From Spirosoma spitsbergense DSM 19989 (GTDB taxonomy: Bacteria > Bacteroidota > Bacteroidia > Cytophagales > Spirosomataceae), in assembly GCF_000374085.1 (NCBI RefSeq), contig NZ_KB893477.1:1-64000 (forward strand): a DNA stretch of 64,000 nt, in the 5' to 3' direction. The notes beneath the pieces were generated by a model. The model was not told the DNA's origin and did no database searches. It saw only the letters and a list, made by a program, of their open reading frames with translations. Each line of letters begins with the position of its first letter. Position 1 is the first letter of the stretch. The position numbers and the translations under genes were made by a program. This document shows positions 10,299 to 44,199 of this stretch, one piece after another.

Positions 10299-10373
10299 TA
10301 TTTTTGTCCCATACGCGACACTACGGACGGTGCCAGCCATTGACTTTTCCAATAAGTTAATCACCAACCGTCT
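10299..10373 (+). promoter_or_regulatory. promoter and structured RNA leader, copy A
   Basis: TATTTTTG (10299-10306) is a Bacteroidota -7 box. Twelve bases later comes the core CACTACGGACGGTG (10319-10332). Its GGACGGT (10325-10331) can pair with ACCGTCT (10367-10373), which ends on the base before the ATG. A smaller local hairpin, CAC...GTG, is an alternative fold of the core. The same unit is found at five other structural genes. Confidence 0.75.
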
Positions 10374-10997
10374 ATGAAGTTCCTGAGTTGTAATACCCTG
10401 ACCGGCCCCCTAGTCACGCCTACGGCCTCCAATTGCACGACGCTTCTGCTGCAAGCTTCCCGGCTGGGCCTTCAGAAAATCCCCGTTGCCGCTGCCCCCT
10501 TTGCTGATCAACCCGCTGCTATGCTCAAAGCCAGCTGGGATACGCAGATGGCCCTTTCGACCGATGCCAAAATCGTGGTACCCAAATTCAAGCACTTTGC
10601 GCCCGAATTACCGCCGACCGAAGCAGTCAAAAAAGGCTCCAATGACAACAGTACGCCCAATGGCCGCAGTATCGTGATGGGGCAGACCATTCCCATGTTC
10701 AAGGCCCAGTGGAACGGATTGAATCCCACACAATACTCACAGGCTGAGGACCTAATGAACTGGGGCAATGCCAACGTCGATTTTGACTCGTTGGGAGTTT
10801 ATTTCTTTCTGGGTACCCGGCAGGTGCTGATGTCGAAAGATTTCGGACCCATCCCCGCCCACGCCTTTTTTATTGGCGATCCGACTGGTATGCAACTGCA
10901 TGAATTGACGATGTTTCCTATTGAGTTTGAGCTTGACAAGGGGTGGTTCCGCGATACTATCGTGTTTGATCTGGGCTTCAACCATAACCTACTGTAA
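10374..10997 (+). CDS. phage structural protein of unknown type, 207 aa
   Basis: The protein lies between terL and the portal gene, where most phages have nothing or a small accessory. It is beta-rich with short aromatic strands (LGVYFFLGTRQVLMSKDF; FPIEFELDKGWFRDTIVFDLGF) and has no membrane segment. It has its own promoter and leader hairpin, as the capsid and tape-measure genes do, which suggests high late expression as a virion part. A decoration or tail-tube-like protein would fit. I do not recognise the family. Confidence 0.7.
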   Translation: MKFLSCNTLTGPLVTPTASNCTTLLLQASRLGLQKIPVAAAPFADQPAAMLKASWDTQMALSTDAKIVVPKFKHFAPELPPTEAVKKGSNDNSTPNGRSIVMGQTIPMFKAQWNGLNPTQYSQAEDLMNWGNANVDFDSLGVYFFLGTRQVLMSKDFGPIPAHAFFIGDPTGMQLHELTMFPIEFELDKGWFRDTIVFDLGFNHNLL

Positions 10998-11203
10998 TGG
11001 GGAAGACCAACAAACAGGCCGAACTTCCCGAAGCCAGGCCCAGCGTGAGGCTTCGGGAACTGGACCCACCGGGTGGGGCCGGTCTGGGCCGGGTGCAGGA
11101 TTTCGAGGCAGGTCACGCCGAAGCTATCCTGGCCCTGCAAACCCCCGCCCACCCGACATGGGAAGTAGTCGACGATACCGTACCCCTGAGCGAAGGAATT
11201 TAG
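10997..11203 (+). CDS. small hypothetical protein, 68 aa
   Basis: The ATG overlaps the stop codon of the gene upstream (TAATG), and the stop is directly before the portal ATG, so the frame fills the space exactly. The sequence is Pro/Gly-rich in the middle (ELDPPGGAGLGRVQDF) with charged ends and no recognised domain. It may be a small virion or connector accessory. The evidence is mainly positional. Confidence 0.6.
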   Translation: MGKTNKQAELPEARPSVRLRELDPPGGAGLGRVQDFEAGHAEAILALQTPAHPTWEVVDDTVPLSEGI

Positions 11204-13508: not shown

Positions 13509-13550
13509 TTCACGTTCATCAGTAATCAATAATCCAACTAACCATAGCGT

Positions 13551-13560
13551 CTACGGACGG
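13551..13560 (+). promoter_or_regulatory. partial leader core before the scaffold gene
   Basis: CTACGGACGG occurs 8 bases before the ATG at 13569. The promoter box and the complementary second arm of the full leader are missing. It could be a remnant or a minimal form. A similar minimal form occurs at 32641-32650 on the minus strand. Confidence 0.4.
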
Positions 13561-13568
13561 ACACAACT

Positions 13569-14480: not shown

Positions 14481-14513
14481 CCGTGCCGGACGTAAAGCCG
14501 GACATTGCCAGGA

Positions 14514-14566
14514 CACCTATGGACGGGTGCAAAAACTAATTCATTCATTTAAACCCGTTTATTGTC
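14514..14566 (+). promoter_or_regulatory. diverged RNA leader of the capsid gene, copy B
   Basis: CACCTATGGACGGGTG (14514-14529) replaces the usual core, and both strands of each possible stem have changed. ACGGGT (14523-14528) pairs with ACCCGT (14553-14558), and the local hairpin is CACC...GGTG. This is the best sign of covariation among the leaders. The second arm ends 8 bases before the ATG. No TAnnTTTG box was found next to it. Confidence 0.6.
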
Positions 14567-15643
14567 ATGTCAATTACCGCCACGACTTTACCCGAAATGA
14601 TTGCCAGTATTGATAACGGCTCTCAGTTTGGTGCGCTGGAAAAGCGGATGTCCCACTACGGGGCTATCAACATGTTTTACCGCAATGCCAATGCCCTATT
14701 TGGTGCGGCTCTGATTGCCGAACTGCGGAAGCTGCCGTTTACCCGTACCGTGAAAATTCCCATTTTCGACAAGTACGACCACACGATCCTGACCGCCCGC
14801 TCCTGCGATATCGCCTGCAACAACGTCGATACCCGCACCAAAACACTGACCCGTACGCACCTGGCGATTGATATCTGTATCAATCCCACGGACTACGAGA
14901 ACAACTACGCCAAGATGAGTCAGGCCTTGATGCACCGCTACATTATGGCCAAGAAAGCCGTCTACCGGACACTCGACACGATGGCCGTTACCTACGCGGA
15001 TGCCAACAAGGATACGACCATGACCGTCGATCCGGGTGGAGCCACGCCCAACGCCAATCCATTGTTTACGGGAAAGGCTGGTGCGTACGAACTGCCCTCG
15101 ACGCTCAAATTCTACGCCTACCTGGCCACGATTCTGGAGCAGCTGGACATCGACGGCCCGTATCTGGATATTGCCAACACGGTAGCGAATGCCGAGCAAA
15201 ACATTCTGCGCAATCCCGGCAACGGCGCTCTGTTGGATACGACCAGCCTGATGAACGGGGCGGGGATCACGCAGTACGATTACTCGAACCGGGTGGCACC
15301 TGGTGTGCTGATGCCGGTTCACTACATCGCGCCCGTTGGCTCGATTGGCGTACTTAACATGATCGATCCGGTCTATCAGGATAAGCCCGTGATTGGCTCA
15401 GGTGACAGCATTGAGCAGTGGAAAGATTTCAAAAACAAAACCGAGCTGAAGGCCTGGGGCCAGACGCCGGATGAAGTGTTCAATGATTGGGACTGGGGTG
15501 TTTTGCAGGAGGTTGTCTGCGTGAACGAAACAATCCTGTACAAGGTGAAATTCTCGGCCGACTTCATGTTTGCCTGTGACTTCACCTCCGTGGCCGGTGA
15601 GTCTCCGCTGAAGCGTTTCGACGTGGCCGCACTGACCACGTAG
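14567..15643 (+). CDS. major capsid protein, 358 aa
   Basis: The length, place after the scaffold and composition fit an HK97-type capsid subunit. It has a helical start (FGALEKRMSHYGAINMFYRNA), a long central strand/helix region with FTRTVKIPIFDKYDHTILTA, and a C-terminal beta-rich end (LYKVKFSADFMFACDF). A leader hairpin precedes it and a strong terminator follows 22 bases after the stop, so it can be made at a high level separately from the genes behind it. No fibre or Ig domain is attached. Confidence 0.85.
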   Translation: MSITATTLPEMIASIDNGSQFGALEKRMSHYGAINMFYRNANALFGAALIAELRKLPFTRTVKIPIFDKYDHTILTARSCDIACNNVDTRTKTLTRTHLAIDICINPTDYENNYAKMSQALMHRYIMAKKAVYRTLDTMAVTYADANKDTTMTVDPGGATPNANPLFTGKAGAYELPSTLKFYAYLATILEQLDIDGPYLDIANTVANAEQNILRNPGNGALLDTTSLMNGAGITQYDYSNRVAPGVLMPVHYIAPVGSIGVLNMIDPVYQDKPVIGSGDSIEQWKDFKNKTELKAWGQTPDEVFNDWDWGVLQEVVCVNETILYKVKFSADFMFACDFTSVAGESPLKRFDVAALTT

Positions 15644-15664
15644 GCCATTGATTAATTGATTATC

Positions 15665-15706: not shown

Positions 15707-15721
15707 AACTGATCCTGCTTT

Positions 15722-18413: not shown

Positions 18414-18529
18414 TAATTTTACCTCTATACCCCACTACCGGACGGTGCGCGGCTATTAAAAATCGCTTAACTGTCCCGGTGTTGCACTACGGACGGTGCG
18501 GCAATCCCCAACGCCAACCTTAACCGTCC
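18414..18529 (+). promoter_or_regulatory. tandem RNA leader of tape-measure gene 1, copies C and D
   Basis: Two units stand in a row. The first has a near-promoter box TAATTTTA (18414-18421), a core with one extra base (18433-18447) and a second arm GTCCCGG (18473-18479). The second has the exact core CACTACGGACGGTG (18485-18498), whose GGACGGT pairs perfectly with ACCGTCC (18523-18529), directly against the ATG at 18530. This is the only place with the unit doubled. Confidence 0.75.
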
Positions 18530-21500
18530 ATGATTGACCACGACGACCTTTTTTCAGAAAGTAAAATATTAGCTTCAATCGCTAGATTGTTAGCCGCCAA
18601 TAAAGAATTTGGCGAATCCGTAATAAATACAAACAGTCGAATAGGTAAAACAGTACAAGAACAGCTTACCCTACTGGCTAAGTACAAAGTACAGTTAGAG
18701 GGATTAAGGGACAGTAAAGATGTCTTCGGATTCGCAAAGGAAATCAATGAAACAACCTCAGCAATTCGGGCAAACAACGGGATTTTATCCCAAAACAAAT
18801 CATTAGTTGATTCCAACAACAAGGTAATTGAGCAGATGAGCAGCCGACTGGCTGAACTGCAAAAAGAGTACGAAACCCTAGACCTCACCCAAAAAAAGGA
18901 CGTTGCCCGTAAGAAGGAAATCCAGCGGGAACTTACCTCAACCACCCGCGCTGTAACCTCCCTTACCAGTGCTACATCCGTAGCCGGTCGGACAGTTAAA
19001 GCCGCCGAAAACTCATTCGATGCCCTTAAGCAGCAGACTCGTGACCTGAAAAGGTCGCTGGACGCATTACCTAATAGTTACGACCGGGGCACAAATAAAA
19101 TAAATGAACAGAACCGGGCGGCTGTTGCACTGAATGCACAGTATCAGAAAAATATTGCTTCGATCAATGCCATTGAACGAGGGCAAAAGAACTTTCGCGG
19201 TAATGTCGGCAACTATCCAACCGCCCAATCGTCCGGTTCTTCGCTGAGTAGTATTGGCTCACTGGCGGCTGGGGCGGCTGGTGTGGGTTCGGTGGCTATC
19301 GTTGCCGACAAAATCCTATCGGGATTAAAATCGGCCGGTGAAATTATTCTACAGTTTGATTCGCTGGATTCGGCCCTCAAAGTTGTCTCTAATGACACCA
19401 ATTTATTTACCCAGCGTCAGGCGATGCTCAGTAAGGTGTCGGATGATTTGGGGCAGGACTTATCAGTTGTTGAAAAGACCTATACCAACCTAACGGCATC
19501 AAGCAAGGGCACCCGGCTAGAAGGCGAGGCAACGGATAAGATTTTTACCGCCATTACGGGTACGATGGGGCGGCTCAAAAAGCCGGGCCAAGACACGGAA
19601 CGGGCGTTACTGGCAATAGGCCAAGTCATGAGTAAAGGTGTTTTGGCCAGCGAAGAATTAAGGGGGCAGTTGGGTGAAGTAATCCCAAATGCTTTTGGCA
19701 TAGCCAGTAAAGCAATGGGCGTTACAACCCAGAAATTAGGCGATATGCTTAAAAACGGCGAAGTACTGGCTTCGGACTTCCTGCCCAAATTTGCTGCCGA
19801 ACTCGAACGTACCTTCAACCCAAACCATGAACAGCGAGTGGAGGGGCTAGCCGCCAATTTAGCCCGCCTTCGGAATGAGAACGTTGAATGGCTGAAAAGC
19901 ATCAACATTGGCGATAAGGCTGGTGAATTTATTGGCAATATCACTAAAATGGCCCGTTCGGTTCGGGAGTACTTTTCGCCTGCCTTTGTTGAGTCTACCC
20001 GCATTTTCAACGAGCAGACTGATTCCCTCAACACGCTGGAATCGACCATGCCGGGCTTACTTTCCCGCTACGATGAACTGAAAAGCAAATCCAAGCTATC
20101 CACCGATGAGCAGAAGGAGTTGCAGACGGTTATCAATAACCTGACAAGTTTAGCTCCCTCAGCCGCAACTGGCTTCGATGCCTATGGTAACGCGCTGGAC
20201 ATCAACAAGGGTAAGGTACTGTCGTTTACAGCCGCTCAACGGCAACTAAACGCCGAACTCAACAAACAGGCCATTGCAGACGTAACCCGACAAGCGGGCG
20301 CGGATATGTCCGTTATTCAGGATCGCCAGAAAAAGCTTAATAGCGGCAAAGAATTGAAGGGGCCTATAGCTAGGGTGTTCAGTGGAATGAATGACCGCTA
20401 TCAGAGTATTTCCGATGAGCGAAGTAAAGAATTGCAGGGAGAGATTGACACGAAAAGTGAAAGCGTCATAAGCAAGGCTCGTCAGATTATGAGCATGGGT
20501 GGAGTAGTAAATGGAGCGCTACGAAAATACGTGGAAAACTCGTCTGACTATAGCGCGAAGCAACTGTTATTAATTGACGACTACAATAAGAAGATTACCG
20601 ACAAACAGGCGGTTGCGGCTGACCTTTTCCAGAAGGGGGCCAAAAAACAGCGGGAAGTAGTGGTGAAGGAGATTGGCAAATTAAAGGCCGAGTTAGGCCA
20701 AATCATCAACCCAACGTTACCGGGCGAAAAGTCTGGTAGTGACAAACCCGAACTCAGTCAGGCAGCGGCCAATAAAGCCAAAGCAGCCGCCGAAAAACAG
20801 TTATCCGAATCGCTCAGAAAATCCCAATCCGTTACCGGCGATAAACTAGCCAATCTGGACAGCCAGCGTCAGGACGGGTTAATCACGGAGCAGCAGTTCA
20901 TTGAAGATCGCCTAAAAATTACGCTGGATGGCCTTAATAATCGTCAGGCATTACTGGAAAAGGCAGGCAAGAAAGAGACAGACGATTATATCAATATTCA
21001 GAAAGAGAAGAAAAAAGCCGACACTGAATACAGCCGCTCACAGTTGCAACTTGACCTGAAAAGCAATAAGGGCAAAACGGACGCTTCACTAAGTGGGCTG
21101 GATAAACAGCGTAGCGAAGGCGATATGTCCGATTTGTCGTATATCGACAAGCGGCATGAGTTAATTGTGGCCGGAATCGAACGGGATCAGGTTACTTTGA
21201 GAGAAGCCGGGCAAGCCCAAACTGAACTGTTTAAGGCCACTGACACCGCTTTGCAGGCTGAACAGAGTGACTATCTGGATAAACGGTTACAGGCGATTAA
21301 AAAGTCATTCAAAGAGGAGCTAGGGGCTATCGGTGACAGCCTGAAAACCATTGACCAGCAGGCCGGGGCTGACTACGAAACCCGACTTGCCGAAAGCAAG
21401 GTTTTCTACAATAGTTTGCGGCAACAGGTTGAGGAGGCCGAAGCGAACGGGCGAATTTCACCAACCGATGCCCGTAACTCAATACAGCTTATTGATATAA

Positions 21501-24501: not shown

Positions 24502-24670
24502 TTTTTATTAATATTGTAAAGTCAACTAGTGACAGAAACGCTGCACAGTACCCTAAGCGGGTTGCCCGGCAAAGTAAGTAACTGACTGACTGCCAATAAA
24601 AAACCCCAATGCTAAGATTTCGACGTCCATAGCAAAGGGGCAAGTGTCACAATCTAACGGGTAAGTTAAA

Positions 24671-25069
24671 ATGAACACAGACCAAAAGTACGGGTCAGAC
24701 GCATCCGGCGCAACCCCAACTCCACCAGCGGCCCAAAACGGCCCCCAAACCCCTCCCCCGCCTGACAATCGGCAACCGATAGCCGAATCCGCGTCCTGTT
24801 CTGAATCGGAGATCAAGTTACCCCTTTCCGTTTGGGAATGTAGGGGTAATCTATCCGAGGTTGAATTAGTGTACTGGGCACTCGAAGGCTCAAAGCAATC
24901 CTACCTCAAAGACCTTGTAGAAGAGGCAAAAACACCGGATAGCCAGGAGTACGAAACGGCTGATTACTGCCTGACCAAGTTACAGGAGATTCAGAATAGC
25001 CTGTTTGGGTTAGTGGCTGGTCTGGCTTCCCGCCTGTCTTTATCCGCAAACGGGATGAGCCATGAATGA
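24671..25069 (+). CDS. hypothetical protein of the antirepressor operon, copy 1, 132 aa
   Basis: The N-terminal 45 residues are Pro/Gln/Asn-rich and probably disordered. The rest is a helical domain (LSEVELVYWALEGSKQSYLKDLVEEA, then ADYCLTKLQEIQNSLFGLVAGLASRL). A close copy is encoded at 33601-33999 in the second cassette. The stop overlaps the antirepressor start by 8 bases. Perhaps it works with the antirepressor. I do not recognise the family. A 169-base leader with possible hairpins lies before it. Confidence 0.65.
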   Translation: MNTDQKYGSDASGATPTPPAAQNGPQTPPPPDNRQPIAESASCSESEIKLPLSVWECRGNLSEVELVYWALEGSKQSYLKDLVEEAKTPDSQEYETADYCLTKLQEIQNSLFGLVAGLASRLSLSANGMSHE

Positions 25070-25844: not shown

Positions 25845-25851
25845 TAACTTA

Positions 25852-26097: not shown

Positions 26098-26167
26098 GAA
26101 GCAGGAGTATTGCCGCCGAAAAATAACGGCGTTAGTAGCGGAACTCAATGCCCTAAACAATCAGTAA
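25982..26167 (+). CDS. 61-aa helical protein, copy 2 of 3
   Basis: It reads MENKPQPQVPITPLSLLTRQL.DWQNLL.DLI, then a helix RRKITALVAELNAL. It resembles the proteins at 34894-35079 and 6165-6362. It starts inside the membrane-protein gene and runs in another frame. The conserved PITPL..L..RQL..W suggests a short interaction motif followed by a coiled coil. The function is unknown, but three copies in one phage region argue that it matters. Confidence 0.65.
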   Translation: MENKPQPQVPITPLSLLTRQLADWQNLLADLIQLQGDVEKQEYCRRKITALVAELNALNNQ

Positions 26168-30712: not shown

Positions 30713-30778
30713 TATTTTTGACCTACCCCACTACGGACGGTGCGCGGCCATTGAAGCCTTTTTTGCCCCCGTCCGTCA
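30713..30778 (+). promoter_or_regulatory. promoter and RNA leader of tape-measure gene 2, copy E
   Basis: TATTTTTG (30713-30720) is followed after 8 bases by the core CACTACGGACGGTG (30729-30742). ACGGACGG (30733-30740) pairs perfectly with CCGTCCGT (30769-30776), 2 bases before the ATG. It is intact although the gene behind it is truncated. Confidence 0.8.
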
Positions 30779-31318
30779 ATGATCAATTACGACGATCTTC
30801 TCAATGAATCCGGCATCCTGCGCAGTATTGCCAAACTGGAAGCCGCCAGCGTCAAATTTGCCGATACCGCCATTGCCCAGAACGAGCGGGCCAAACAGTC
30901 ACTAGTTGGCCTCAGCAGCGAACTGGCTGACACCCGTGCCCAGATTGCGGGCCTCAACAACAACCAGAAGGGAGCCAGTACCAGCGTCAGCGGGCTGAAA
31001 GACGACGTAAAAAAACTCAGCGACGAGTACAAACGGCATCAGGAATTACTGGCCCGCAACCAGCAGTTCGTCGACCTCAACACCGCATCAGCCGGGGCAC
31101 TCAAAAAGCGGCTGGCTGATCTAAAAACCGAATACGACAGTCTGGACCGTTCCGAAGCCCGGAACGTGGCCCGGAACAAAAAGCCAAGCCACGTCCTAAA
31201 GAATGTAAAGCGAAGACTCGTTTATAAAATTGCCTGCATTACTTTTTCATTTCCAATCAGGAATGATTCGTTTTTATTGGTCTCTGCGGCCTCCAGTGCT
31301 AATTTAGTATATGTCTGA
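30779..31318 (+). pseudogene. truncated tape-measure gene 2
   Basis: About 134 residues (to 31182) align with the starts of tape measures 1 and 3: DDLLNESGILRSIAKLEAA..FADTAIA, then LKKRLADLKTEYDSLDRSEARNVARNKK. The others continue with KEIQREL...TTRAV. Here the similarity ends and 45 unrelated residues follow. The GC-rich composition matches the resident late genes. I take this as the 5' end of the original tape-measure gene, cut off by the second accessory segment. A short product could still be made and might interfere with tail assembly. Confidence 0.75.
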
Positions 31319-32232: not shown

Positions 32233-32636
32233 GCAAATTCAGGTACTAAGTGTGACGGCGGCACATTAACAGTTAAAGCCCTTGTGTCTCCCGTACTTAG
32301 CGCAGAACCAAATGCTTTGTTGTCCGTAATAGCTTTTAAGAATGAATGGCTGGTGTCTGTAGTGGTTAACTGAGTCCAACCTAGGAAGGCTAACTCGCAC
32401 TCTAGTCCTTTACCATGCTTTTCTGCTGCAAGGCAGAAGCAAGTTAAAGCCTCTTCAATGGCGACCCCTAAATCAGCCTCATTTTTGCCGTATGTTTCAA
32501 TACCGAGAAAGGGTATTTTGGCGTAAATTTTACCATCATCACCCGTCCTGTTCCATGTGGGCATAATGACGCTAACGGAAGACAATTCACTGCCAATCCG
32601 CGTGATTTCCATAGATATATTGACTTGCTGATCCAT
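32229..32636 (-). CDS. HicB-like antitoxin, copy 2, 135 aa
   Basis: The start MDQQVNIS at 32636 is chosen because the 25 codons before it do not look like protein and because a leader-type motif (CTACGGACGG on the minus strand) ends 4 bases upstream. Residues 35-85 have the HicB-like pattern DGKIYAKIPFLGIETYGKNEADLGVAIEEALTCFCLAAE and a later LAFLGW that matches ELRQYGW of the first copy. It is coupled to an unknown 96-residue partner. Confidence 0.6.
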   Translation of the reverse strand: MDQQVNISMEITRIGSELSSVSVIMPTWNRTGDDGKIYAKIPFLGIETYGKNEADLGVAIEEALTCFCLAAEKHGKGLECELAFLGWTQLTTTDTSHSFLKAITDNKAFGSALSTGDTRALTVNVPPSHLVPEFA

Positions 32637-32640
32637 ATCT

Positions 32641-32650
32641 CCGTCCGTAG
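32641..32650 (-). promoter_or_regulatory. leader core on the minus strand before the HicB-like gene
   Basis: CTACGGACGG reads on the minus strand and ends 4 bases before the ATG at 32636, much like 13551-13560 before the scaffold gene. Neither has the flanking CAC...GTG closure or the second arm. The match of 10 bases at the same place may be chance. Confidence 0.35.
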
Positions 32651-32677
32651 AGTTGTGGTGATGACTACGGCAGACAG

Positions 32678-33577: not shown

Positions 33578-33600
33578 TAAACCTCAAACAGGTAGTTTAA

Positions 33601-33999
33601 ATGTCTACGGAACAAAGTTACGTGGGTAAGGGGGATTCTGCAATCCCCAATCCACCAGCGGCCCAAAACGGCCCCCAAATCCCCCCCCCGCCTGACAATC
33701 GGCAACCGATAGTCGAATCCTCATCTTATTCCGAATCGGAGATCAAGTTACCCCTTTCCGTTTCGGAGCATAAGGGTAATCTATCCGAGGCTGAATTAGT
33801 GTACTGGGCACTGGAAGGCTCAAAGCAATCCTACCTCAAAGATTTGCTCGAGGAGGCAAAAACACCGGAAAGTCAGGAGTACGAAGCGGCTGATTACTGC
33901 CTGACCAAGTTACAGGAAATTCAGAATGACCTGTTTGGGTTAGTGACTGGTCTGGCTTCCCGCCTGTCTTTATCCGCGAACGGGATGAGCCATGAATGA
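33601..33999 (+). CDS. hypothetical protein of the antirepressor operon, copy 2, 132 aa
   Basis: This is a close copy of the protein at 24671-25069. The N-terminal part is Pro-rich and more diverged (GDSAIPNPPAAQNG), while the helical part from EIKLPLSV onward is nearly the same (LVYWALEGSKQSYLKDLLEEAKTP). Codons 27-30 contain a run of nine C (33681-33689) where the other copy has an interrupted run. The stop overlaps the antirepressor start by 8 bases. The function is unknown. Confidence 0.65.
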   Translation: MSTEQSYVGKGDSAIPNPPAAQNGPQIPPPPDNRQPIVESSSYSESEIKLPLSVSEHKGNLSEAELVYWALEGSKQSYLKDLLEEAKTPESQEYEAADYCLTKLQEIQNDLFGLVTGLASRLSLSANGMSHE

Positions 34000-34753
34000 G
34001 CTAATCAAAGTTTCCACCAACGGGCAAGGCTCGGAGGTGGTATCGGCTCGTGAGTTATATGATTTTCTTGAAGTCAAATCAAAGTTTGCTGATTGGATAA
34101 AAAACCGCATCATTAAGTACGGCTTTCTGGAAGATGAGGACTATGTACCGCTTTCTAAAAATTTAGAAAGCGGTGGTAAGGAATTTGACTACGCCCTGAC
34201 GCTGGACATGGCCAAACAGTTATCAATGGTCGAGCGAAACGAGAAGGGTAAACAGGCCCGGTTGTATTTCATCGAGTGCGAAAAAGCCCTGCGTCAATCG
34301 GCCCCCGTTATTTCCACTACGGAACAGGTCTTACTGCAACTGGTCAGCCAGAGCAATCAGATACTAGCCAGCCAAAGCGAAATGCTTCTGTCTTTACGGG
34401 CCGACGTGGACAGCATCATGCATGGCGTGAAACCAGCCAGACCTACTGCCCGCCGTTCCTCATTGCCCGGTAAACAACTCGGTTTACCCGGAATGCCGCC
34501 CGGTCGTCAGCCCGGCCCATCCCTGCGTCAAACGATTCATGCCCGCGTGGTGGATTATAGCCACTCCCGCCAAGCCAGTACGAAGGAGGTTTACAATTTT
34601 CTCTATAAACAGCTCTTTTACGTCTACGGCATTGACGTGTACAGGCTAATGAAGGGGCCAGAGGAATCTATACTGGATGCTATAGAGCGTTACGGCCATT
34701 TAGACCGACTGTACTCGCTAATAATGGCCGAACTGACCTATACAGAAGAATAA
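33992..34753 (+). CDS. AntA/AntB-type antirepressor, 253 aa
   Basis: Residues 15-95 are an AntA/AntB domain: SARELYDFLEVKSKFADWIKNRI.KYGFLEDEDYVPLS, then FDYALTLDMAKQLSMVERNEKGKQARLYFIECEK. The C-terminal 150 residues copy those of the Rha-type protein at 25062 (ISTTEQVLLQLVSQSNQILASQ; LPGKQLGLPGMPPGR; helical end VYSLIMAEL). The junction of similarity is near APVISTTEQ. It probably counters the repressor of its own cassette or of a related phage. Confidence 0.85.
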   Translation: MNELIKVSTNGQGSEVVSARELYDFLEVKSKFADWIKNRIIKYGFLEDEDYVPLSKNLESGGKEFDYALTLDMAKQLSMVERNEKGKQARLYFIECEKALRQSAPVISTTEQVLLQLVSQSNQILASQSEMLLSLRADVDSIMHGVKPARPTARRSSLPGKQLGLPGMPPGRQPGPSLRQTIHARVVDYSHSRQASTKEVYNFLYKQLFYVYGIDVYRLMKGPEESILDAIERYGHLDRLYSLIMAELTYTEE

Positions 34754-34763
34754 CAATAATTCA

Positions 34764-34997
34764 ATGAATCCTTCATCGCTTCGTCCCTTCCTGCTCCCCG
34801 TGTTGTTTTTCCTGCTGGCCGCTCTTGGTGTTCAGTGGACTAGACACCGGGTAGAGCAAAGAAAGGGGGAGCACAACCAACCAATTATTTATCATGGAAA
34901 ACCAACCACAACCCCAAGTTCCGATTACCCCGCTTTCTCTGTTGACCCGCCAATTGACCGGCTGGCAAAACCTGCTGGCCGACTTGATTACCGCTAA
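34764..34997 (+). CDS. single-pass membrane protein, copy 2, 77 aa
   Basis: It has the same plan as the protein at 25852: a hydrophobic helix (LLPVLFFLLAALGVQW), then TRHRVEQRKGEHNQPIIYHGK. The tail overlaps the next gene in another frame for 104 bases. The membrane helix and basic segment are kept, while the tail sequence is less constrained. The function is unknown. Confidence 0.6.
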   Translation: MNPSSLRPFLLPVLFFLLAALGVQWTRHRVEQRKGEHNQPIIYHGKPTTTPSSDYPAFSVDPPIDRLAKPAGRLDYR

Positions 34998-35079
34998 TGC
35001 CCCAGACGACCAACGCCGTTATTGCCGCAAAAGAATAACGGCGTTGGTCGCGGAGTTAAAAAGCCTGGAAGATCAATGA
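34894..35079 (+). CDS. 61-aa helical protein, copy 3 of 3
   Basis: MENQPQPQVPITPLSLLTRQL is identical to copy 2 except at position 4. The middle differs (ITANAPDDQRRYC) and the final helix RITALVAELKSL is kept. Its stop overlaps the start of the HNH gene (ATGA), so the nuclease gene is translated with this operon. The function is unknown. Confidence 0.65.
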   Translation: MENQPQPQVPITPLSLLTRQLTGWQNLLADLITANAPDDQRRYCRKRITALVAELKSLEDQ

Positions 35080-36410: not shown

Positions 36411-37577
36411 TCATATATACTCACAATTTTCTAAACATTCTCTCAGTAGATCTCCTGTATGCTCCCCTAAAGTTGACTCCAACACTAAATTAATTCTAAT
36501 CGCTTCTCGTGTCTCTTTGGGAGATAACAAAGCTTTGTCAATTTGAGTCATTATAAGGGGTCCAAATCCACCCACCTTATCTATCAGGTCATCTAACCCA
36601 GTAGCCATCTCATCAACATAAGGTTGCAAACATTGCTTACAATAGGTATGCCTGATACCTTGCGATATTTCAAGAGCCCTCTGATAGGTTTCCCCCAGCT
36701 TTTTAGCCACGAATACCAAGGCTTTTATGTTTGATGGTTGACCCGGAGGTCCTAAAGCAGTTTTCAGATGATTATTAACAAGATCAGAACCGGCTCCCGC
36801 AATTCTAATCATTTCTTGGTATTTCAAATCAGCCCAATCGAAAACATTTGCAGTTGTTAAAACTTCCCCTTCACTGAATTTAAACCTCAAGCGATGTTCC
36901 TCCCGTAAATCTGAGCGCCTATCTACTTCATCAGACAGGACCTGAGCAAAGAAGTAGTGTTCCCAACCTAGTGGTTGTTCTAAGATTAACCTTAATGCTT
37001 TTCCGCTGATCCCCTCAGGTATTGACTCTTTAGCTGAACTCAGTCGCTGGATTGCCAACAGACCTTCTTTCATCTGATGGGCAAACTGAAGTCTCAATGT
37101 TTGAATAATTGCTTGCGCATATTCAAATTCGTGAGTCCAAACCATATCTACAGAACGGACCTGGCGAATAAACTCGAACACTTTGGTATCCGAAACGGCA
37201 CCATCGAATTTTGCTTCGGGATTCTGTTCCCAAATCGGCAGAAGTGGTAATACTCTCTTATCAACAAAGGCATAGATCGGAATACCTTTGGCACGGGCAG
37301 TAAGGTATTCTAAATTAGTAACAGATTTAGCCGTTTTGTCATCAACGTAACCATATCTACCGCCAATTACCAGGATTAATATATCGGCATCTCTATCGAC
37401 TCGACGCCGACAATTTTCAATTGTATTTGCGTCGGGATCAACTGGGAAGCTATCAAACTCTGATGCTAGTGCATTGTAACCAAGTTCTTTTTCAATAAAG
37501 TTTACTAAGTCTTGCCGAATATCACGTAAATCATAATACGTCGAGCTAATCATTACTGTAGGAGCATTTTTTGCCAT
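36411..37577 (-). CDS. DUF4062-domain protein, defence candidate, 388 aa
   Basis: The start MAKNAPTV at 37577 begins the DUF4062 domain: VMISSTYYDLRDIRQDLVNFI, then ASEFDSFPVDP and ADILILVIGGRYGY..., a Rossmann-like fold related to TIR-type sensors. The domain ends near residue 150. The C-terminal 230 residues are helical, with no ATPase motif seen (usual partners are NTPases or TPR repeats). It is on the minus strand, apart from the tail genes. DUF4062 proteins are often found in defence islands, so a role against other phages is plausible but not shown. Confidence 0.75.
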   Translation of the reverse strand: MAKNAPTVMISSTYYDLRDIRQDLVNFIEKELGYNALASEFDSFPVDPDANTIENCRRRVDRDADILILVIGGRYGYVDDKTAKSVTNLEYLTARAKGIPIYAFVDKRVLPLLPIWEQNPEAKFDGAVSDTKVFEFIRQVRSVDMVWTHEFEYAQAIIQTLRLQFAHQMKEGLLAIQRLSSAKESIPEGISGKALRLILEQPLGWEHYFFAQVLSDEVDRRSDLREEHRLRFKFSEGEVLTTANVFDWADLKYQEMIRIAGAGSDLVNNHLKTALGPPGQPSNIKALVFVAKKLGETYQRALEISQGIRHTYCKQCLQPYVDEMATGLDDLIDKVGGFGPLIMTQIDKALLSPKETREAIRINLVLESTLGEHTGDLLRECLENCEYI

Positions 37578-37749
37578 ATCAGACTTATTAAGCTTTGAGA
37601 GAAGCCTAAATTTAGCATATGTCCTTATCATTTAATGTACTTTAGGCACAAACGAACTTGCCTTATCATTGTGAAGTCGAATTTAGATGAACAATCTGCT
37701 CCTTATAGAATCGCAGAGGGTGATTAGTTGGAAGCTGATTCAATAAAGT

Positions 37750-37779: not shown

Positions 37780-37843
37780 TAATTTTGACCTACCCCACTA
37801 CGGACGGTGCGGCCCTTAATAATCCTTTTGGCCCCCGTTCCGT
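37780..37843 (+). promoter_or_regulatory. promoter and RNA leader of tape-measure gene 3, copy F
   Basis: TAATTTTG (37780-37787) is followed after 8 bases by the core CACTACGGACGGTG (37796-37809). Its ACGGACGG pairs with CCGTTCCGT (37835-37843), with one bulged base, directly against the ATG. The bases between promoter and core (ACCTACCC) are the same as in copy E. Confidence 0.8.
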
Positions 37844-40800
37844 ATGGATTCCCAGATATTATTTTCAGACCTAGCCGACCAATCCGGCATTTTACGGGCA
37901 ATTGAACTGCTTCAAAAAGCCAACGAGAAGTTTGGCGATTCCGCCGTCGCCACTAACGAGCGTATCAGTAAGTCGCTGGCTGGCTTGCTAACTGACCTTA
38001 ATAAAGCCCGTGAATCGGTTTCCTCCTTCAATAACACCCAAAAAGGAGCGGGTGATAAGTTTGGCAAAATCAATCAGAGTGGCCAAGAACTCATTACTAC
38101 GTACAAAAGCCTGAATGGTACACTTGCTCAGAATAAGTCGGCTGTTGAGGCTAACAACCGGGTTATTGACCAAATGCAAAAGCGGCTGGCGATACTTCAA
38201 GATGAGTACGAAAAGTTAGATTTTGCCAAAAAGGAGGACACAAAGCGTAGTAAGGAAATTCAGCGCGAACTAACGACAACCACCCGCGCTGTGAATGGCC
38301 TATCGACTGCTACTAATAGTTCCAGTAGAAGCGTTAGAGCCGCCGAAGGTTCAACCGATGCCCTAAAACAGTCAGTCAGAGATTTGAAGCGGCAACTGGA
38401 CGGATTACCTGACGCTTACAAAAAAGGCACTGGACAGATTAATGAGCAGAACCGGGCGGCTGTCAAACTGAATCAGCAATACCAACAACAGGTAACATTG
38501 TTGGGTAAAATCGAGAAGGGCCAACAGATACACACCCGAAACGTCGGCAATTATCCCAAAGGGGGCGGGGCACTTAGTTCACTGGGAGACCTGACAGGAC
38601 TAGGGACATACGGCACGGCGGCTGGTGTTGGTACGGCTATTATTAGCGCGGGTTCGGCCATTATTGAAGTTGGGCAGAATTACGAACGATTGGCGTTGCT
38701 GACTGAAAATGCACTGAAAAATAACAAGAAAGCCGCAGCCGAAGCGAACGCTCTTATTATTGATTTTGCCAACCATAGTCCCGCCGAAATTGAGGAGGTT
38801 ACCGACGCATTTAATCGACTGGTTACGGCGGGTATTATCCCCACTAAAGAGCAGTTAGAACAAATATCTGACATTGCCATTGCCAAGCGTAAAACCATTA
38901 TGGACTACGTGGAGGCTATTGCGGATGCGGAGCAAGGGCAATACCGACGGTTGGAAGAATTTGGGATTAACGCCAGCAAGTCAGGGGATAAAGTAATTTT
39001 TACGTATAACGGTGTCCGTACTGTCGTTGAAGATAACAGTAAGGCCATTAGTGATTACCTGATTAACTTGGGTAAGGTGCCGGGAATAATGGGGGCGACA
39101 GAAAAGGTGGCCGAAAGTTTTTCGGGCCGTTGGTCAACCACTAAGGATGCTATAAAGGGAGTGGCAAGTAATATTTTTCAGCTACTTCTACCCGCTTTAA
39201 ATGCAGCCTTATGGCTCCTAAATAAAGGTACCGATAAACTAGGCACGTTCACCGCTGGACTTAAGGCATTATATGCCGAAGGAAATCGGCGGGGCGGGGT
39301 AATTGGTGGTGCCTACGGGGTGGCTATGGGTGTCCTGAGTCCTAGTACTGCAATGACTATCGGCAGGGCTACTCAGGCGGCTCAAGCATCAACGGGAACC
39401 AGTGAGTTAGATGCTTATCGTAAAAAGGAAGAAATACAGCAGAAAATCAATGATGCGAATCGCAAAAAAGCGGAAGCGGCCACCAAAGCCCAAAAGGATG
39501 CCGACAAAAATCTGAGAGAAAGTATCTCCAATCAGAAAGCAGCCAGCGACCAATCCTTAGCGGCTAACGAAGCAGCCCAACAGGATGGACTAATATCCGA
39601 ACGTAAGTTCATATCCGAACGTCAACGCATCACCATTTCGGGCATAAATGAACGATTAACAATGCTTCGTTCAGCCGGAAAGTCAGAAACCGATGACTAT
39701 AAAAAGCTACTGACTGACAAAATTGACGCGCAAAATCAGTACAAACGCGATTCCCTCAAACTATCATTATCCGAATCGAAAGCTGATGCCAACAAAGCAA
39801 TTGCCGGATTGGCAGTCGACAATCAAGATGGCAACCTATCCGATTCTGATTTTGCGGAACGTAAACGAGGGGTGATGGTTGCTTCGCTCAATGAACAAAA
39901 AGCGATTCTGGCTTTAGCGGGTCAGGCTCAGAGTAAACTGAGTCAGAATATTGACAGAGAGTTGTTAGAGGTCGATACTGATTACTATCGTGAAAAACTA
40001 AAGATTGCCAAAGCAGCTTGGAAACAGGAATTAATGGCAACGGGTGAAGCATTACGCGAAATCGACCACCAAACTGCAAAGGAGTACGACGATCAACTTG
40101 TCAAGATTAACCAGTTTTATAATGAGAAACGTAAACTGGTTCGGGGCGATGTAGCCGCTAAAAAGATAAGTCAGGATGAGGGTGATCGCCTTGCTGGTTT
40201 ACTGGACATTAACGAACTGAGAGATCAGGTTCAGGCGGCTCAACTTGCCTATGACAAAGATCAGATTAATAGCAATACTTTAACTGAATCCAAGATACAG
40301 GATTTAGAGAAATATAAATCAGCCAGTGATCGAACGATAAGAGAAATCCAGTCGGCTGATGAACAGATTGCGGCCCTGAAAAAACAGCGTGAACAGGATG
40401 CGGCCAATGACAAGATAGCACTCGACAAAAAGAAATCTGATAACGCTATTGCTCAGTCCAATAAAGAGGATTCTAACGATGAGGAAAATAAGAAAAAGCA
40501 GAAAGCCAGAAGAGAGCAGCTAGCCGATGCCGCCGTTGCCATCGCTCAAACGCTGGTTGACGGCCTGTTTGATAATCAACAACAGGAAACTCAGAATAAG
40601 ATTACAGCCCTTGATAAACAGCAATCATATGAATTAAGTGTTGTTGGTGATAACGAAGCGGCCAAAACTGCCATTCAGCAGAAATACGATGCACAACGGA
40701 AAGCCCTCCAAAGGCAGGAGGACGTAGCCGCAAAAAATAAAGCCATTTTCGATATAATACTCAACACCGCCGTATCAGTTTCCAAGGTTGTAGCTAATCC

Positions 40801-41350
40801 AATATTGGCCTTTTTAGTGGCTGGATTAGGAGCCGTGCAATTAGGCTTAGTTCTTTCACGCCCCCTCCCTGCTTATTTTGCGGGCAAGAACCTGGAAGGG
40901 GCCGCAAAAGACACTTACGCCGGGCCTGCCTGGGCGGGTGATCGAGGCCGGGAAATCTGGCAACATGACGGCCAAGTCGATGTAGTCGACAAACCGACAA
41001 TCATCGACGTGGGTCGTACTGATGTGATCTATCCCAACCACATCACCGAGCGGCTACTGCGGGGCGATTACGCCGAAGGCAGTCAGATCATGCAGCGCAC
41101 AGCCCGCTCCCGCCAACTGTCGGGTAATTTGTCCCGCAGCCGGGATAACCACCAGGCATCACTGATTGCCCGCGCCATGAGCGGAGTCGGACAATCAGGT
41201 AACGGAGTGGCTTCGGAGATTAAGAAAGGGTTTGAGCAGGTCGAGGTGCATCAGTGGCACGTTCGGAACGGGCAATTAGTGGACCTGGTCACTACGCAGC
41301 ACAACCGGCGTAACGCCCAGCAGAAAAAACACCAACTCGGCAGCAAATAA
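37844..41350 (+). CDS. tape-measure protein 3, 1168 aa
   Basis: It has the same N-terminal plan as tape measure 1 (LADQSGILRAIELLQKANEKFGDSAVATNERI; KRLAILQDEYEKLDFAKKED) and the same end (YFAGKN.EG...TYAGPAWAGDRGREIW). The centre (residues about 280-450) differs and has LVTAGIIPTKEQLEQISDIAIA, with a hydrophobic run near 440-455. Repeats DGLISERKFISERQRI resemble those of TMP1. Predicted tail length is about 175 nm. The last 350 bases (from about 41000) are GC-rich like the resident genes, while the rest is AT-rich, suggesting a hybrid gene. It is probably the active tape measure because the tail-tip genes follow at once. Confidence 0.9.
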   Translation: MDSQILFSDLADQSGILRAIELLQKANEKFGDSAVATNERISKSLAGLLTDLNKARESVSSFNNTQKGAGDKFGKINQSGQELITTYKSLNGTLAQNKSAVEANNRVIDQMQKRLAILQDEYEKLDFAKKEDTKRSKEIQRELTTTTRAVNGLSTATNSSSRSVRAAEGSTDALKQSVRDLKRQLDGLPDAYKKGTGQINEQNRAAVKLNQQYQQQVTLLGKIEKGQQIHTRNVGNYPKGGGALSSLGDLTGLGTYGTAAGVGTAIISAGSAIIEVGQNYERLALLTENALKNNKKAAAEANALIIDFANHSPAEIEEVTDAFNRLVTAGIIPTKEQLEQISDIAIAKRKTIMDYVEAIADAEQGQYRRLEEFGINASKSGDKVIFTYNGVRTVVEDNSKAISDYLINLGKVPGIMGATEKVAESFSGRWSTTKDAIKGVASNIFQLLLPALNAALWLLNKGTDKLGTFTAGLKALYAEGNRRGGVIGGAYGVAMGVLSPSTAMTIGRATQAAQASTGTSELDAYRKKEEIQQKINDANRKKAEAATKAQKDADKNLRESISNQKAASDQSLAANEAAQQDGLISERKFISERQRITISGINERLTMLRSAGKSETDDYKKLLTDKIDAQNQYKRDSLKLSLSESKADANKAIAGLAVDNQDGNLSDSDFAERKRGVMVASLNEQKAILALAGQAQSKLSQNIDRELLEVDTDYYREKLKIAKAAWKQELMATGEALREIDHQTAKEYDDQLVKINQFYNEKRKLVRGDVAAKKISQDEGDRLAGLLDINELRDQVQAAQLAYDKDQINSNTLTESKIQDLEKYKSASDRTIREIQSADEQIAALKKQREQDAANDKIALDKKKSDNAIAQSNKEDSNDEENKKKQKARREQLADAAVAIAQTLVDGLFDNQQQETQNKITALDKQQSYELSVVGDNEAAKTAIQQKYDAQRKALQRQEDVAAKNKAIFDIILNTAVSVSKVVANPILAFLVAGLGAVQLGLVLSRPLPAYFAGKNLEGAAKDTYAGPAWAGDRGREIWQHDGQVDVVDKPTIIDVGRTDVIYPNHITERLLRGDYAEGSQIMQRTARSRQLSGNLSRSRDNHQASLIARAMSGVGQSGNGVASEIKKGFEQVEVHQWHVRNGQLVDLVTTQHNRRNAQQKKHQLGSK

Positions 41351-41351
41351 A

Positions 41352-44096
41352 ATGGCACAGACATTTTTTAGACTTAAAACAGCCGTCCTGACAATAGGCG
41401 TCACCGAGCCGGTCGCCATTTCGCCCACCATTGCCGAGCCGGTAAAATGGTCCGACGTTCCGTTGACGGGCTCTGTTGACGAGAAATATCACGGATTCAA
41501 TTACAACTATTCGGAGGGTGACCTGAAGCTGGATTTTGTTTGTGAATCGTCTCACAAATTACTATCCCAGCAGTATTACCGGTATGGTACCGATGCGGTG
41601 GTACAATTTCAGGTTGTTGAAGTAGACAGGGATGGCACGGAAATGATTGATTATGACGGACGGCTGGATTTCGATACGATTGATATTCAACCCGGACGGG
41701 TATCAATCAGTATCGTCACCAACGACGACCATACCCGGCTCAATGCCCGCTGGGAAACGCCCATCAGTCTGGAAAGTATAGTGACAATGGATAACGCGGC
41801 AATCGGAAAAACACCGACCACGGAAATCCTGCTTTTGGGACAGACAATTCACGAAAGCGGGGAATTCCACAAGGCCGAAAAGTTCGTTGAAAGCCATGCT
41901 TATACCGATGGGGTTGGCGTGGGGGGTATATTTTACCTGCTGCCAAAAATGTACTTTCCGGCCAGCCCAACACCTGTTATTGCCCCCGCCGTACCCGCCA
42001 TTCCTGAACTCTCGAACCTGAAAGGAGTCAATTACCTGTATGGGGATGTGAGCCCCGCTACCTTCGATCCGCCTGCATTGCTTGGCCCCACTGATACAGC
42101 CGGAGAGTACCATATCGAAATCGACTGGCTATTCTCGATTAACGTTTCCATTACCAACAACACACTAAATTCAATCTATAAATCAAAGTTCGGCATACTC
42201 AATTTTCAGCCTGTCGTCGTTATTCAGAAACCAAATCAGCCCATTCAGGCCGTTGCCCTTTGTCCGCCAAAATCAGGAAATGGATTTATCAACAGCGTGG
42301 AGCACTCATTTTCGGGCGTTTACCGGGCCGATCTGACGCTGCCCATCGGAACGCAGGTATTCGTCTATACCAAAATCGTGGCCACGTCCGTGCACGCGCT
42401 GAAACGGATGGAATTCTACGTGGAGACCAGCAACCTGCGCATCCTGATCGACCGCAGGACGCGGGCAGCAGCCAGCAAAACAAAAGCCTACTTACTGCCC
42501 GATGCCCTGCGCCATGTGTTCGGGGCGATTACCTCCAACATTGATTCAGTCACTCAGTCGGGAACCGTACATGGCGAATTGATTGATAAGGCGAATGTCA
42601 ACCAGGCGATGGACGGCTACGCCACCGAGTACGCCATCACGTCGGGCAATCAACTGCGCGGCCTGGCCAAAGTGCCCACCTTCACGGCTAAACAACTAAT
42701 GGAGACCCTTTGGGCTCAGCACGCAGCGGGTTTGTTGTATGAAAAAGACTTAACCACCGGGGTGCAGTCCATGCGCATCGAGGAGGGGACCTGGTTTTAC
42801 CGGGGTGGTGAAATTGCGGTAATCGACGAAGTGTTTGAGTATTCAGAAGAGCCCGATTTGGATCTGCTGTTCAATCAGATTGAGGTGGGTTACGAAAAGT
42901 ATCCGGATTCGGGAGCAGGCGTGGCCGACGAGTTTAACACGGCCCACACCTACCAGACCCCGCTGGTCAACCGGGTTGCAACACTGGAAATACTCTGCCC
43001 GCTTATTGCCGCAGGTACCGCCATTGAGGCTGCCCGGCGGCTGGGCATTAAACAGGTGGTGAACGGCGTAGAGGTGTCAACCACCAGCGACGCGGGTAGT
43101 TACGACGACGACGGGTTTCTGCTGCACGTGGCACCGCTGTCACACCCCGATACGGTGAGTTTCATTATCGCCCAACCGACGCCTGCCAAACCCTACCCGG
43201 CCCATTACGTACAGTTCACTAACGCGGTCATTAACGGCAATCCCGGCGGTATCGTGCTCTATTATGGTGATACCGTTGTTTTTTCGGGAACCGGCACGGC
43301 CAACGACGGCGTACCGTACAGAGTGGTTGGCGTACGACTGGAGACGTTTTCCAGTTTCAGTGCCATCCCAACCTATGAGATGCAGGCCACTACGCCCATG
43401 GTAGCCGGTGGGCCCTATGCCTGCTCGTGGCAATTCGGGGGAAAATCGGTGAAACTGCGCAGCAATGAGCGACTCATTGTGCAGGGAGTGGCTGACCCGG
43501 AAACGGCCTATAATCTGGAACTTTCACCCGCCCGGATGCTCCGCCGACATGCGCCATTCATCTCATCAGGATTGGCCTACAAAAAGCCGGTTGATCTGAT
43601 AAAATGCACGGCCTATAAGCAAAGCAGCAAAGTCAGCACTCAGGTGCGCCCCGCAAGCCCCCCCCTGCCCGGCGACCGCGATAAACAACTGATCCGCGAA
43701 ACGGGAAACATTGCACTGGGTGCCTTCGAGGGCTTTGACCATCTGTTTCAACCCGAACTTATCAAAGCTAAAGTCAGAATCACTCGCCAGACGCGCCGGG
43801 CTATTTTTGCGGCCCTCAAAAACCAGGGGCCGGATGATGTTCGCTGCGGCTACCTGACGGTAATCAATCCAGAGGGAGAGCAGGTGAATGGCTACCTGCG
43901 AAGCATCACCTACCGGGATTCCTCAGAGGTAGCCGATATAGTGCTCCGCAAAAGGAGCATGACTCCGGCGGGCAATCTGCCCGGTGAAGATTGCAGTCTG
44001 TTTTTTGACTGGACGCTGAACCGATTCACCATTGACCCAAAGGCTAATCCTGATAAATTCCTGTTCTGCCGTTTCTCCGATTTTAAGCCTGCCTAA
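41352..44096 (+). CDS. tail-tip/baseplate structural protein, 914 aa
   Basis: It starts one base after the tape-measure stop, the usual place for distal-tail and hub proteins. The first 150 residues contain strands and turns (VKWSDVPLTGSVDEKYHGFNY; EVDRDGTEMIDYDGRLDF) typical of tail-tip beta sandwiches. The middle has a domain with GVQSMRIEEGTWFYRGGEIAVIDEVFE, and the end has a small domain (DVRCGYLTVINPEGEQVNGYLRSITYRDSSEVADIVLRKR). No enzyme motif is visible. I do not recognise the family and the role is from position and length. Confidence 0.7.
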   Translation: MAQTFFRLKTAVLTIGVTEPVAISPTIAEPVKWSDVPLTGSVDEKYHGFNYNYSEGDLKLDFVCESSHKLLSQQYYRYGTDAVVQFQVVEVDRDGTEMIDYDGRLDFDTIDIQPGRVSISIVTNDDHTRLNARWETPISLESIVTMDNAAIGKTPTTEILLLGQTIHESGEFHKAEKFVESHAYTDGVGVGGIFYLLPKMYFPASPTPVIAPAVPAIPELSNLKGVNYLYGDVSPATFDPPALLGPTDTAGEYHIEIDWLFSINVSITNNTLNSIYKSKFGILNFQPVVVIQKPNQPIQAVALCPPKSGNGFINSVEHSFSGVYRADLTLPIGTQVFVYTKIVATSVHALKRMEFYVETSNLRILIDRRTRAAASKTKAYLLPDALRHVFGAITSNIDSVTQSGTVHGELIDKANVNQAMDGYATEYAITSGNQLRGLAKVPTFTAKQLMETLWAQHAAGLLYEKDLTTGVQSMRIEEGTWFYRGGEIAVIDEVFEYSEEPDLDLLFNQIEVGYEKYPDSGAGVADEFNTAHTYQTPLVNRVATLEILCPLIAAGTAIEAARRLGIKQVVNGVEVSTTSDAGSYDDDGFLLHVAPLSHPDTVSFIIAQPTPAKPYPAHYVQFTNAVINGNPGGIVLYYGDTVVFSGTGTANDGVPYRVVGVRLETFSSFSAIPTYEMQATTPMVAGGPYACSWQFGGKSVKLRSNERLIVQGVADPETAYNLELSPARMLRRHAPFISSGLAYKKPVDLIKCTAYKQSSKVSTQVRPASPPLPGDRDKQLIRETGNIALGAFEGFDHLFQPELIKAKVRITRQTRRAIFAALKNQGPDDVRCGYLTVINPEGEQVNGYLRSITYRDSSEVADIVLRKRSMTPAGNLPGEDCSLFFDWTLNRFTIDPKANPDKFLFCRFSDFKPA

Positions 44097-44119
44097 TTTG
44101 CCGATTCAGAAAAACGACT

Positions 44120-44199
44120 TATTTTTGATTCAATAACGCTTTCACTACGGACGGTGAAGCCGCTGATAACCATCCCCCTTTCAGCCGCTCACCAGTCCA
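44120..44199 (+). promoter_or_regulatory. promoter and RNA leader of the SGNH fibre gene, copy G
   Basis: TATTTTTG (44120-44127) is followed after 15 bases by CACTACGGACGGTG (44143-44156). GGAC plus GGTGA pairs with TCACC-A-GTCC (44189-44198), with one bulged A, ending one base before the ATG. Here the core is followed by A instead of C, and the second arm has changed to match. Confidence 0.75.

Follow-up and report, generated by a model that had tools for sequence, protein, structure and literature searches.

Virion genes in a 64,000-nucleotide stretch of Spirosoma spitsbergense DSM 19989 (contig NZ_KB893477.1, positions 1 to 64,000; here called the window) are preceded by copies of one short RNA hairpin. 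The window is prophage DNA, lying on contig G000:C91 within a 7.5-Mb genome. That the conserved unit is a hairpin, consisting of a varying but paired stem and a loop of 8 to 9 nucleotides (nt), is well supported; what we infer is the switch that it would form and the partner that would bind it, including whether that factor comes from the phage and which way each effect runs (at the gene phrog_7970, the direction is read from position alone). Judging from the sequences, we put the chances at about even that these repeats serve a phage late-gene regulon as RNA operators, bound by a phage-encoded RNA-binding factor.

A first-pass annotation of the window had drawn attention to the 14-mer CACTACGGACGGTG, and its account of the copies holds: exact matches lie at 10319, 18485, 30729, 37796, and 44143, all on the plus strand, alongside a variant at 18433 with one extra C and an altered copy at 14514, and the genes that follow are phrog_8193, phrog_7231, the tape measure (full, as an N-terminal fragment, and as a second copy), and phrog_11541. 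PHROGs labels phrog_8193 a major head protein and phrog_7231 a virion structural protein (we take its product as a capsid protein, a label of our own), and gives no function for phrog_11541. An additional copy, overlooked in that annotation, lies at 13551, directly before the phrog_7970 gene. The exact 14-mer occurs in 8 of 200 genomes of the host family, with five copies each in S. spitsbergense (G000) and G188, where they span less than 29 kb of a related prophage, and one in each of six others; the reversed pattern, used as a control in the same genomes, yields 16 matches and never more than two per genome. When up to three mismatches are allowed, the window holds 10 matches, against a mean of 3.87 in 100 shuffles, one of which attains this count, so that loose matches alone are weak evidence. 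A chance repeat is rejected by the genome counts set against the reversed control, together with the stem-pair shuffles and the covariation described below. The tape-measure copies are not independent, since their leaders are partly duplicated DNA: those at 30729 and 37796 (30713-30776 and 37780-37843) are 83% alike across 66 bp, and that at 18433 resembles the one at 30729. The copies at phrog_8193, phrog_7970, phrog_7231, and phrog_11541 sit at unrelated genes.

The comparison set consists of 23 genomes bearing phrog_7231 (G000 and 22 others, cited by our own handles), drawn from 14 of 222 genomes of the host family, 12 of 390 genomes of the order (8 already counted, 4 added), and 9 of 120 genomes of genus g47, which we presume to be Hymenobacter (4 already counted, 5 added). 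The relatives include two congeners of G000, Spirosoma sordidisoli (G152) and Spirosoma sp. 48-14 (G164), as well as Larkinella soli (G016). The hairpin element was seen in 15 of the 23 prophages. It was recognized by eye in G415, G445, and G439 (TA[AC]GGGACG and TACGAGACT hairpins) and in G545, G554, G567, and G593 (hairpins at phrog_7970 and phrog_7231); covariance-model backing is weak for G415 and G445 (E values of 1.4 to 2.5), and there is none for G439. Repeated words in G415 and G439 had first been set aside by eye; these two genomes and G445 came to be counted as positive because of their hairpins, while repeated words in G083, G072, G048, G004, G063, and G126 were dropped as coding or unstructured by eye. 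In IMG/VR, phrog_8193 has no relatives and phrog_7231 a single record, whose DNA is identical to the G152 prophage; among the stretches listed in 14-mer scans of that database (80 of 113 and 80 of at least 120), each has a single match, except the record identical to the G152 prophage. A phrog_7231 search of genome contigs gave three matches, all already in the set, and in a phage collection, the relatives of the tape measure are all distant (900 records, every one below 60% identity). In G063:C1, phrog_7231 genes of equal score lie at 9031 and 56536, ~47.5 kb apart, perhaps as a tandem prophage.

Loop types, namely, TACGGACG, TACCGGACG, TACCGGACT, TACAGGCCC, AAAGGGGCT, and TAMGGGACG, are repeated within a prophage and different between prophages. 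Repeated words upstream of reading frames have the core CTACGGACGG in G000 and G188, CTACCGGACGG in G152, CTACCGGACTG in G016, CTACAGGCCCG in G164, and AAAGGGGCTG in G079, G121, and G149. The uniformity of the loops rests on this word search, since the loop patterns for the site search were set by us; the word search was run without a shuffle control and also yields three-copy words in negative prophages. Because loops recur at unrelated genes and change together between prophages, recognition would take place in trans, and because seven prophages of one host genus carry four loop types (TACGGACG, TACCGGACG, TACAGGCCC, and AAAGGGGCT), a host factor is unlikely. A phage protein appears to be the best remaining reading for the partner; the first-pass annotation had proposed no factor acting in trans.

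The stems differ between sites and remain complementary; they include CAC/GTG, GTC/GAC, ATC/GAT, CACC/GGTG, CCGC/GCGG, GTTGCC/GGCAAC, ACTTC/GAAGT, ACTGA/TCAGT, and GAGTGAT/ATTACTC. From 53 loop matches, we kept the 47 with a C-G closing pair, leaving 6 out of the stem-pair, arm, and folding tests. Across these 47 sites (8 prophages), stem positions 2 to 4 hold 103 pairs, against maxima of 77 and 89 when the 3' flanks were shuffled globally and within prophages, respectively (5,000 trials each); the rows were unselected beyond the closing pair and include orthologous ones. The covariation score is 0.466 for 41 distinct hairpins (alignment A3, in which two of the 47 sites and duplicates were left out), against 0.158 ± 0.023 after shuffling, and 0.570 for 58 hairpins (alignment A5), against 0.188 ± 0.020 after shuffling and at most 0.176 when the partner was slid. 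The percentage paired and the number of cells changed on both sides in A5 exceed those of all 500 shuffles. This alignment is somewhat selected, because 8 of 28 later rows were left out, seven of them lacking a nearby start codon (including the well-stemmed G439 10709) and the eighth, on the minus strand of G545, having a start codon and a poor stem. RNAalifold, run on the alignment without structure input, returned the same hairpin, plus a pair between loop positions 1 and 9, and the loop retains one A, one G, and one C across the 58 hairpins. Covariation, on which the first-pass annotation had staked its RNA leader linked to the start codon, thus holds in the larger set and supports that claim. 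Its view of the CAC...GTG hairpin as a mere alternative fold has to be reversed: the hairpin is the conserved unit, because it is kept where a second arm is impossible (12 phrog_7970 leaders without room for one) or weak (8 of 33 leaders).

A second arm, usually complementary to the loop's 3' half together with the 3' strand of the stem, is seen in most Spirosoma and Larkinella leaders, and because it pairs with those parts, the hairpin and the arm helix are mutually exclusive. A script found an AUG (opening at least 40 codons) for 42 of the 47 sites, with loop-to-AUG distances of 30 to 58 nt at 30 sites, 3 to 10 nt at seven, 18 to 24 nt at three, and 85 and 113 nt at two; the seven near sites are four phrog_7970 leaders, a doubtful copy at 32649, and two further sites, one in G079 and one in G121, whose nearby AUG probably does not start the gene. 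For the 33 leaders outside genus g47 with an AUG 28 to 70 nt past the loop, complementarity between the 22 nt before the AUG and the leader's own core scores 541, compared with a mean of 374 (maximum, 422) in 2,000 window shuffles and a mean of 421 (maximum, 466) in 200 swaps with cores of other loop types. The arm varies with the core, being CCGTCC in G152, CGCAGTCC in G016, and TACGGGC in the G164 tape-measure leader. When the 33 leaders were folded, the mean minimum free energy was -17.2, as opposed to -10.5 with the hairpin held and -13.1 with the spacer shuffled. In these computed folds, holding the hairpin raises the unpaired fraction of the AUG region from 0.38 to 0.62; changes larger than 0.1 are gains in 24 of the 33 leaders and losses in 2. 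In Flavobacterium johnsoniae, weaker structure around the start is reported to accompany higher initiation, a subtle effect (PMC6847099).

The leaders of the window combine these parts on the plus strand. Before the phrog_8193 gene (10374-10997), the -7 promoter box TATTTTTG (10299..10306; consensus as given in PMC6847099) is followed by a CAC/GTG hairpin with loop TACGGACG (10314..10337), identified by loop search, covariation, and the covariance model, and by the anti-arm ACCGTCT (10367..10373; arm score and fold), which adjoins the ATG at 10374 and pairs with GGACGGT. A GTC/GAC hairpin with loop TACGGACG precedes phrog_7970 (13544..13567; word search and covariance model), its stem ending 6 nt from the ATG at 13569, and no TAnnTTTG/A box occurs in the preceding 60 nt. 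The phrog_7231 gene (14567-15643) has a CACC/GGTG hairpin with loop TATGGACG (14510..14533), which was identified by loop search and covariation and missed by the covariance model at E values up to 10, and an anti-arm, ACCCGTTTAT (14553..14562; arm score), 4 nt from its ATG. The remaining hairpins were identified by loop search and the covariance model. In the leader of the first tape measure (18530-22666), an upstream CAC/GTG copy carries the G152 loop type, TACCGGACG (18428..18452), and a GCAC/GTGC hairpin with loop TACGGACG (18480..18503) follows, with the anti-arm ACCGTCC (18523..18529; arm score) abutting the ATG at 18530. The second tape-measure-type leader has the box TATTTTTG (30713..30720), a CAC/GTG hairpin with loop TACGGACG (30724..30747), and the anti-arm CCGTCCGT (30769..30776; arm score) 2 nt from the ATG of the N-terminal fragment (30779-31318), and the third has the box TAATTTTG (37780..37787), a CAC/GTG hairpin with loop TACGGACG (37791..37814), and the anti-arm core CCGTTC (37835..37840; arm score and fold) 3 nt from the ATG of the second tape measure (37844-41350). 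At phrog_11541 (44200-47070), the box TATTTTTG (44120..44127) precedes a TTCAC/GTGAA hairpin with loop TACGGACG (44138..44161) and a bulged anti-arm, TCACC-A-GTCC (44189..44198; arm score and fold), 1 nt from the ATG. A copy on the minus strand (32634..32657; CTC/GAG, loop TACGGACG, 5 nt from an ATG) is doubtful and, at an E value of 2.4, may be due to chance. The TAnnTTTG boxes that the annotation had placed upstream of the core in four copies are there, at 12, 8, 8, and 15 nt before 10319, 30729, 37796, and 44143, respectively. Its second arms are likewise present, with the qualification that those at 37796 and 44143 need a bulge in the fold and that the 18433 copy is 85 nt from the next AUG.

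The switch that we propose would work as follows. Each hairpin loop (TACGGACG in G000) would be recognized by a phage-encoded RNA-binding factor. In the leaders of head, tape-measure, and tail genes, the hairpin would lie at or close to the 5' end of the mRNA; when the factor is absent, the AUG-side arm would pair with the 3' stem strand and the loop half next to it, blocking the ribosome, and when the factor is bound, the hairpin would be held, the arm released, and translation begun. At phrog_7970, a factor bound to the AUG-proximal hairpin, within the ribosome footprint, would instead block initiation.

The phrog_7970 arrangement occurs in 12 of the 23 prophages. Its contiguous stem ends 0 to 7 nt from the AUG, which outer pairs enclose in several of the folds; none of the 12 has a promoter box within the preceding 60 nt, and no such hairpin precedes the gene in G079, G121, or G149. 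Five of the 12 have the hairpin as their minimum-energy fold. Blocking at this gene is argued from position, because folding alone shows no blocking, a result that lowers our confidence in the proposed switch. The structural model of the protein is mainly helical with a long coiled coil (mean predicted local distance difference test score, 77.8; predicted template modeling score, 0.44), has no PDB match at an E value of 0.001, and neither favors nor disfavors RNA binding. This model, and the gene's place between the portal and phrog_7231 genes, suggest that the product is scaffold-like. We know of no RNA-binding activity of phrog_7970.

Several observations weigh against a factor-bound operator common to these genes. 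The element was not found in 8 of the 23 prophages (G083, G072, G004, G048, G126, G063, G526, and G548), and in the prophage DNA searched, no gene family occurs in all of the positives but none of the negatives. In G439, G554, and G567, the phrog_7970 loop, TACGAGACT, differs from that of the phrog_7231 leader. Two of five covariation measures on A5 do not beat shuffles, with pairs changed on both sides matched by 332 of 500 and further pair types by 91 of 500. The covariance model built on the 41 hairpins, which is too short for good searching, gives no strong matches (best E value, 0.014 over 938 kb, on training rows) and some weak matches within three of the negatives (G004, G072, and G526; E values of 2.9 to 7.6), which were dropped by eye as not leader-like. 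Eight of the 33 leaders have arm scores no higher than 11 (G188 515, G152 14299 with its bulged arm, G016 10200, G164 5603 and 9938, G079 6244, and G149 10029 and 15193), and both leaders that lose AUG exposure with the hairpin held are from G016. Among the 12 phrog_7970 leaders, the AUG becomes less exposed by more than 0.1 in 3 and more exposed in 1 (G164) when the hairpin is held, and the contiguous stem has just 1 to 2 pairs in G164 and G016.

These points bear on alternatives in different ways. The factor might be a pure repressor of all the genes, of the coat- or scaffold-operator type, with the anti-arm tuning hairpin formation, a scheme to which the 12 phrog_7970 hairpins ending 0 to 7 nt from the AUG lend themselves, several of them enclosed by outer pairs as in coat-protein operators; we consider it improbable but worth keeping in view, given that hairpin formation exposes the AUG region in 24 of 33 upstream leaders and that the hairpin is mostly 30 to 58 nt away. 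We attach the same low likelihood to a transcriptional role, in which a nascent-RNA site like nut, put, or ops would load an antitermination factor at late promoters and placement at the AUG would be incidental. A TAnnTTTG/A box lies within 25 nt upstream in 18 of the 33 folded leaders, some leaders follow terminator-like hairpins by eye, and the lineage-specific loops resemble lambdoid boxB; however, the phrog_7970 copies, 0 to 7 nt from the AUG, are without a box in all 12 cases, and arms ending at the AUG are left unexplained. With +1 placed five bases after the -7 box, following the numbering in PMC6847099, the hairpin of boxed leaders is near the 5' end of the mRNA.

For the bound factor itself, the search covered short contigs in G121 and G079 and part of the early region in G545, G548, G554, G567, and G593 (~10 kb upstream and at most ~50 kb downstream). 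Small zinc-ribbon open reading frames in the prophage stretches, and very basic small ones of G000, G188, and G152, offered no candidate when read by eye. The factor may be too diverged, may lie beyond the searched DNA, or may be a conserved virion protein that does double duty. A further reading, as unlikely as pure repression, is an assembly protein, most simply the phrog_7970 product, which would repress its own message through the AUG-proximal hairpin and open the capsid and tape-measure messages while unassembled; if this were true, translation of the virion regulon would report on assembly, and loop specificity would drift between phages.

Marginally less probable still is a leader with no trans factor, i.e., a self-contained kinetic switch or mRNA stabilizer whose loops are shared through gene conversion. 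The partly duplicated tape-measure leaders and the empty factor search speak for it, but the same loop occurs in leaders with unrelated stems, spacers, and genes and at the arm-less phrog_7970 sites. We think it quite improbable that the partner is a small antisense RNA pairing with the loop: base pairing would account for the concerted loop changes, but 10 prophage regions contain no consistent loop complement outside leaders and arms, and the one full 10-base complement in the window (32641-32650) is the doubtful minus-strand copy. Least likely of all is a DNA operator or recombination boundary rather than an RNA element, for although the repeats stand at gene borders and G554, G567, and G593 have a true DNA palindrome at matching promoters, the hairpin varies its stem letters with pairing kept and conserves its unpaired loop, the reverse of a DNA palindrome with conserved arms and a free center. 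That palindrome, ATTGTATGTATTTTACATACAAT and close forms (L359-L367), lies over the -7 box at 3, 4, and 5 places in the three genomes, before phrog_8193 and other late genes; no hairpin is present there by eye, and the phrog_7970 hairpin is kept. It is likely a DNA operator, and the arrangement fits hairpin leaders as a late-gene control that can be exchanged for a transcriptional one.

Some features of these prophages concern the genes around the leaders. The window prophage has three tape-measure-type genes (18530-22666, 1,378 amino acids [aa]; 30779-31318, a 179-aa N-terminal fragment; and 37844-41350, 1,168 aa), of which the two long ones are 37 to 49% identical in their C- and N-terminal parts, and these could possibly provide alternative tail lengths. 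Between the copies lies a duplicated module (24653-26142 and 33584-35054) of antirepressor genes (Rha and AntA) adjoining GIY-YIG and LAGLIDADG-type endonuclease genes. The late region also contains an opposite-strand gene for a DUF4062 protein (36411-37631, minus strand), perhaps a cargo gene. G152 (L036) has head-to-head hairpin leaders ~70 bp apart at two places ~9.3 kb apart, where the opposite strand carries tape-measure-type genes; the module is duplicated (81% over ~700 bp), which suggests inversion or cassette exchange.

Bacteroidia ribosomes, according to PMC9976891, do not recognize Shine-Dalgarno sequences. A common covarying RNA operator over virion genes would be a testable answer to how Bacteroidia phages time virion-protein synthesis, and the lineage-specific loops suggest a natural collection of orthogonal RNA-protein pairs. 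In the open-access literature, we found no account of an element of this kind, a negative that carries little weight, and a search of Rfam with positions 8000 to 58000 of the window gave 8 matches at E values up to 5, none of which reached the gathering score or fell on a leader. As with lambdoid boxB and N, loops are common within a phage and different between phages, but boxB serves antitermination, and the hairpins here are positioned at AUGs. The operators of RNA-phage coat proteins (MS2 and PP7) are hairpins at the AUG, like that of phrog_7970; unlike them, the present element belongs to a double-stranded DNA prophage and elsewhere stands far upstream with a competing arm. The scaffolding protein of phage P22 is autoregulated, and the phrog_7970 hairpin would fit a similar posttranscriptional control of a scaffold gene, although here further virion genes are linked to the same hairpin. 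CsrA (PF02599) is above the cutoff in 0 of 17 genomes (subthreshold in 2), and the Com family (PF10122) in 0 of 11 (subthreshold matches at E values up to 1 in 7). CsrA is described as binding short hairpins bearing GGA in the loop (PMC7366521), and like CsrA/RsmE operators, the window loop, with ACGGAC in TACGGACG, fits ANGGA, but most loop types drop it (ACCGGAC, ACAGGCC, and AAGGGGC). The nearest known mechanism, by analogy, appears to be that of Mu Com and mom, in which Com, a zinc-finger protein of 62 residues, is proposed to expose the mom start by targeting a hairpin beside the inhibitory structure that covers it (PMC6483171). As in Mu, a hairpin here lies upstream of an inhibitory structure over the start, as judged from computed folds and the increased AUG exposure in 24 of 33 leaders; unlike Mu, where one gene is regulated, the putative operator is common to several virion genes, and its loop is lineage specific.

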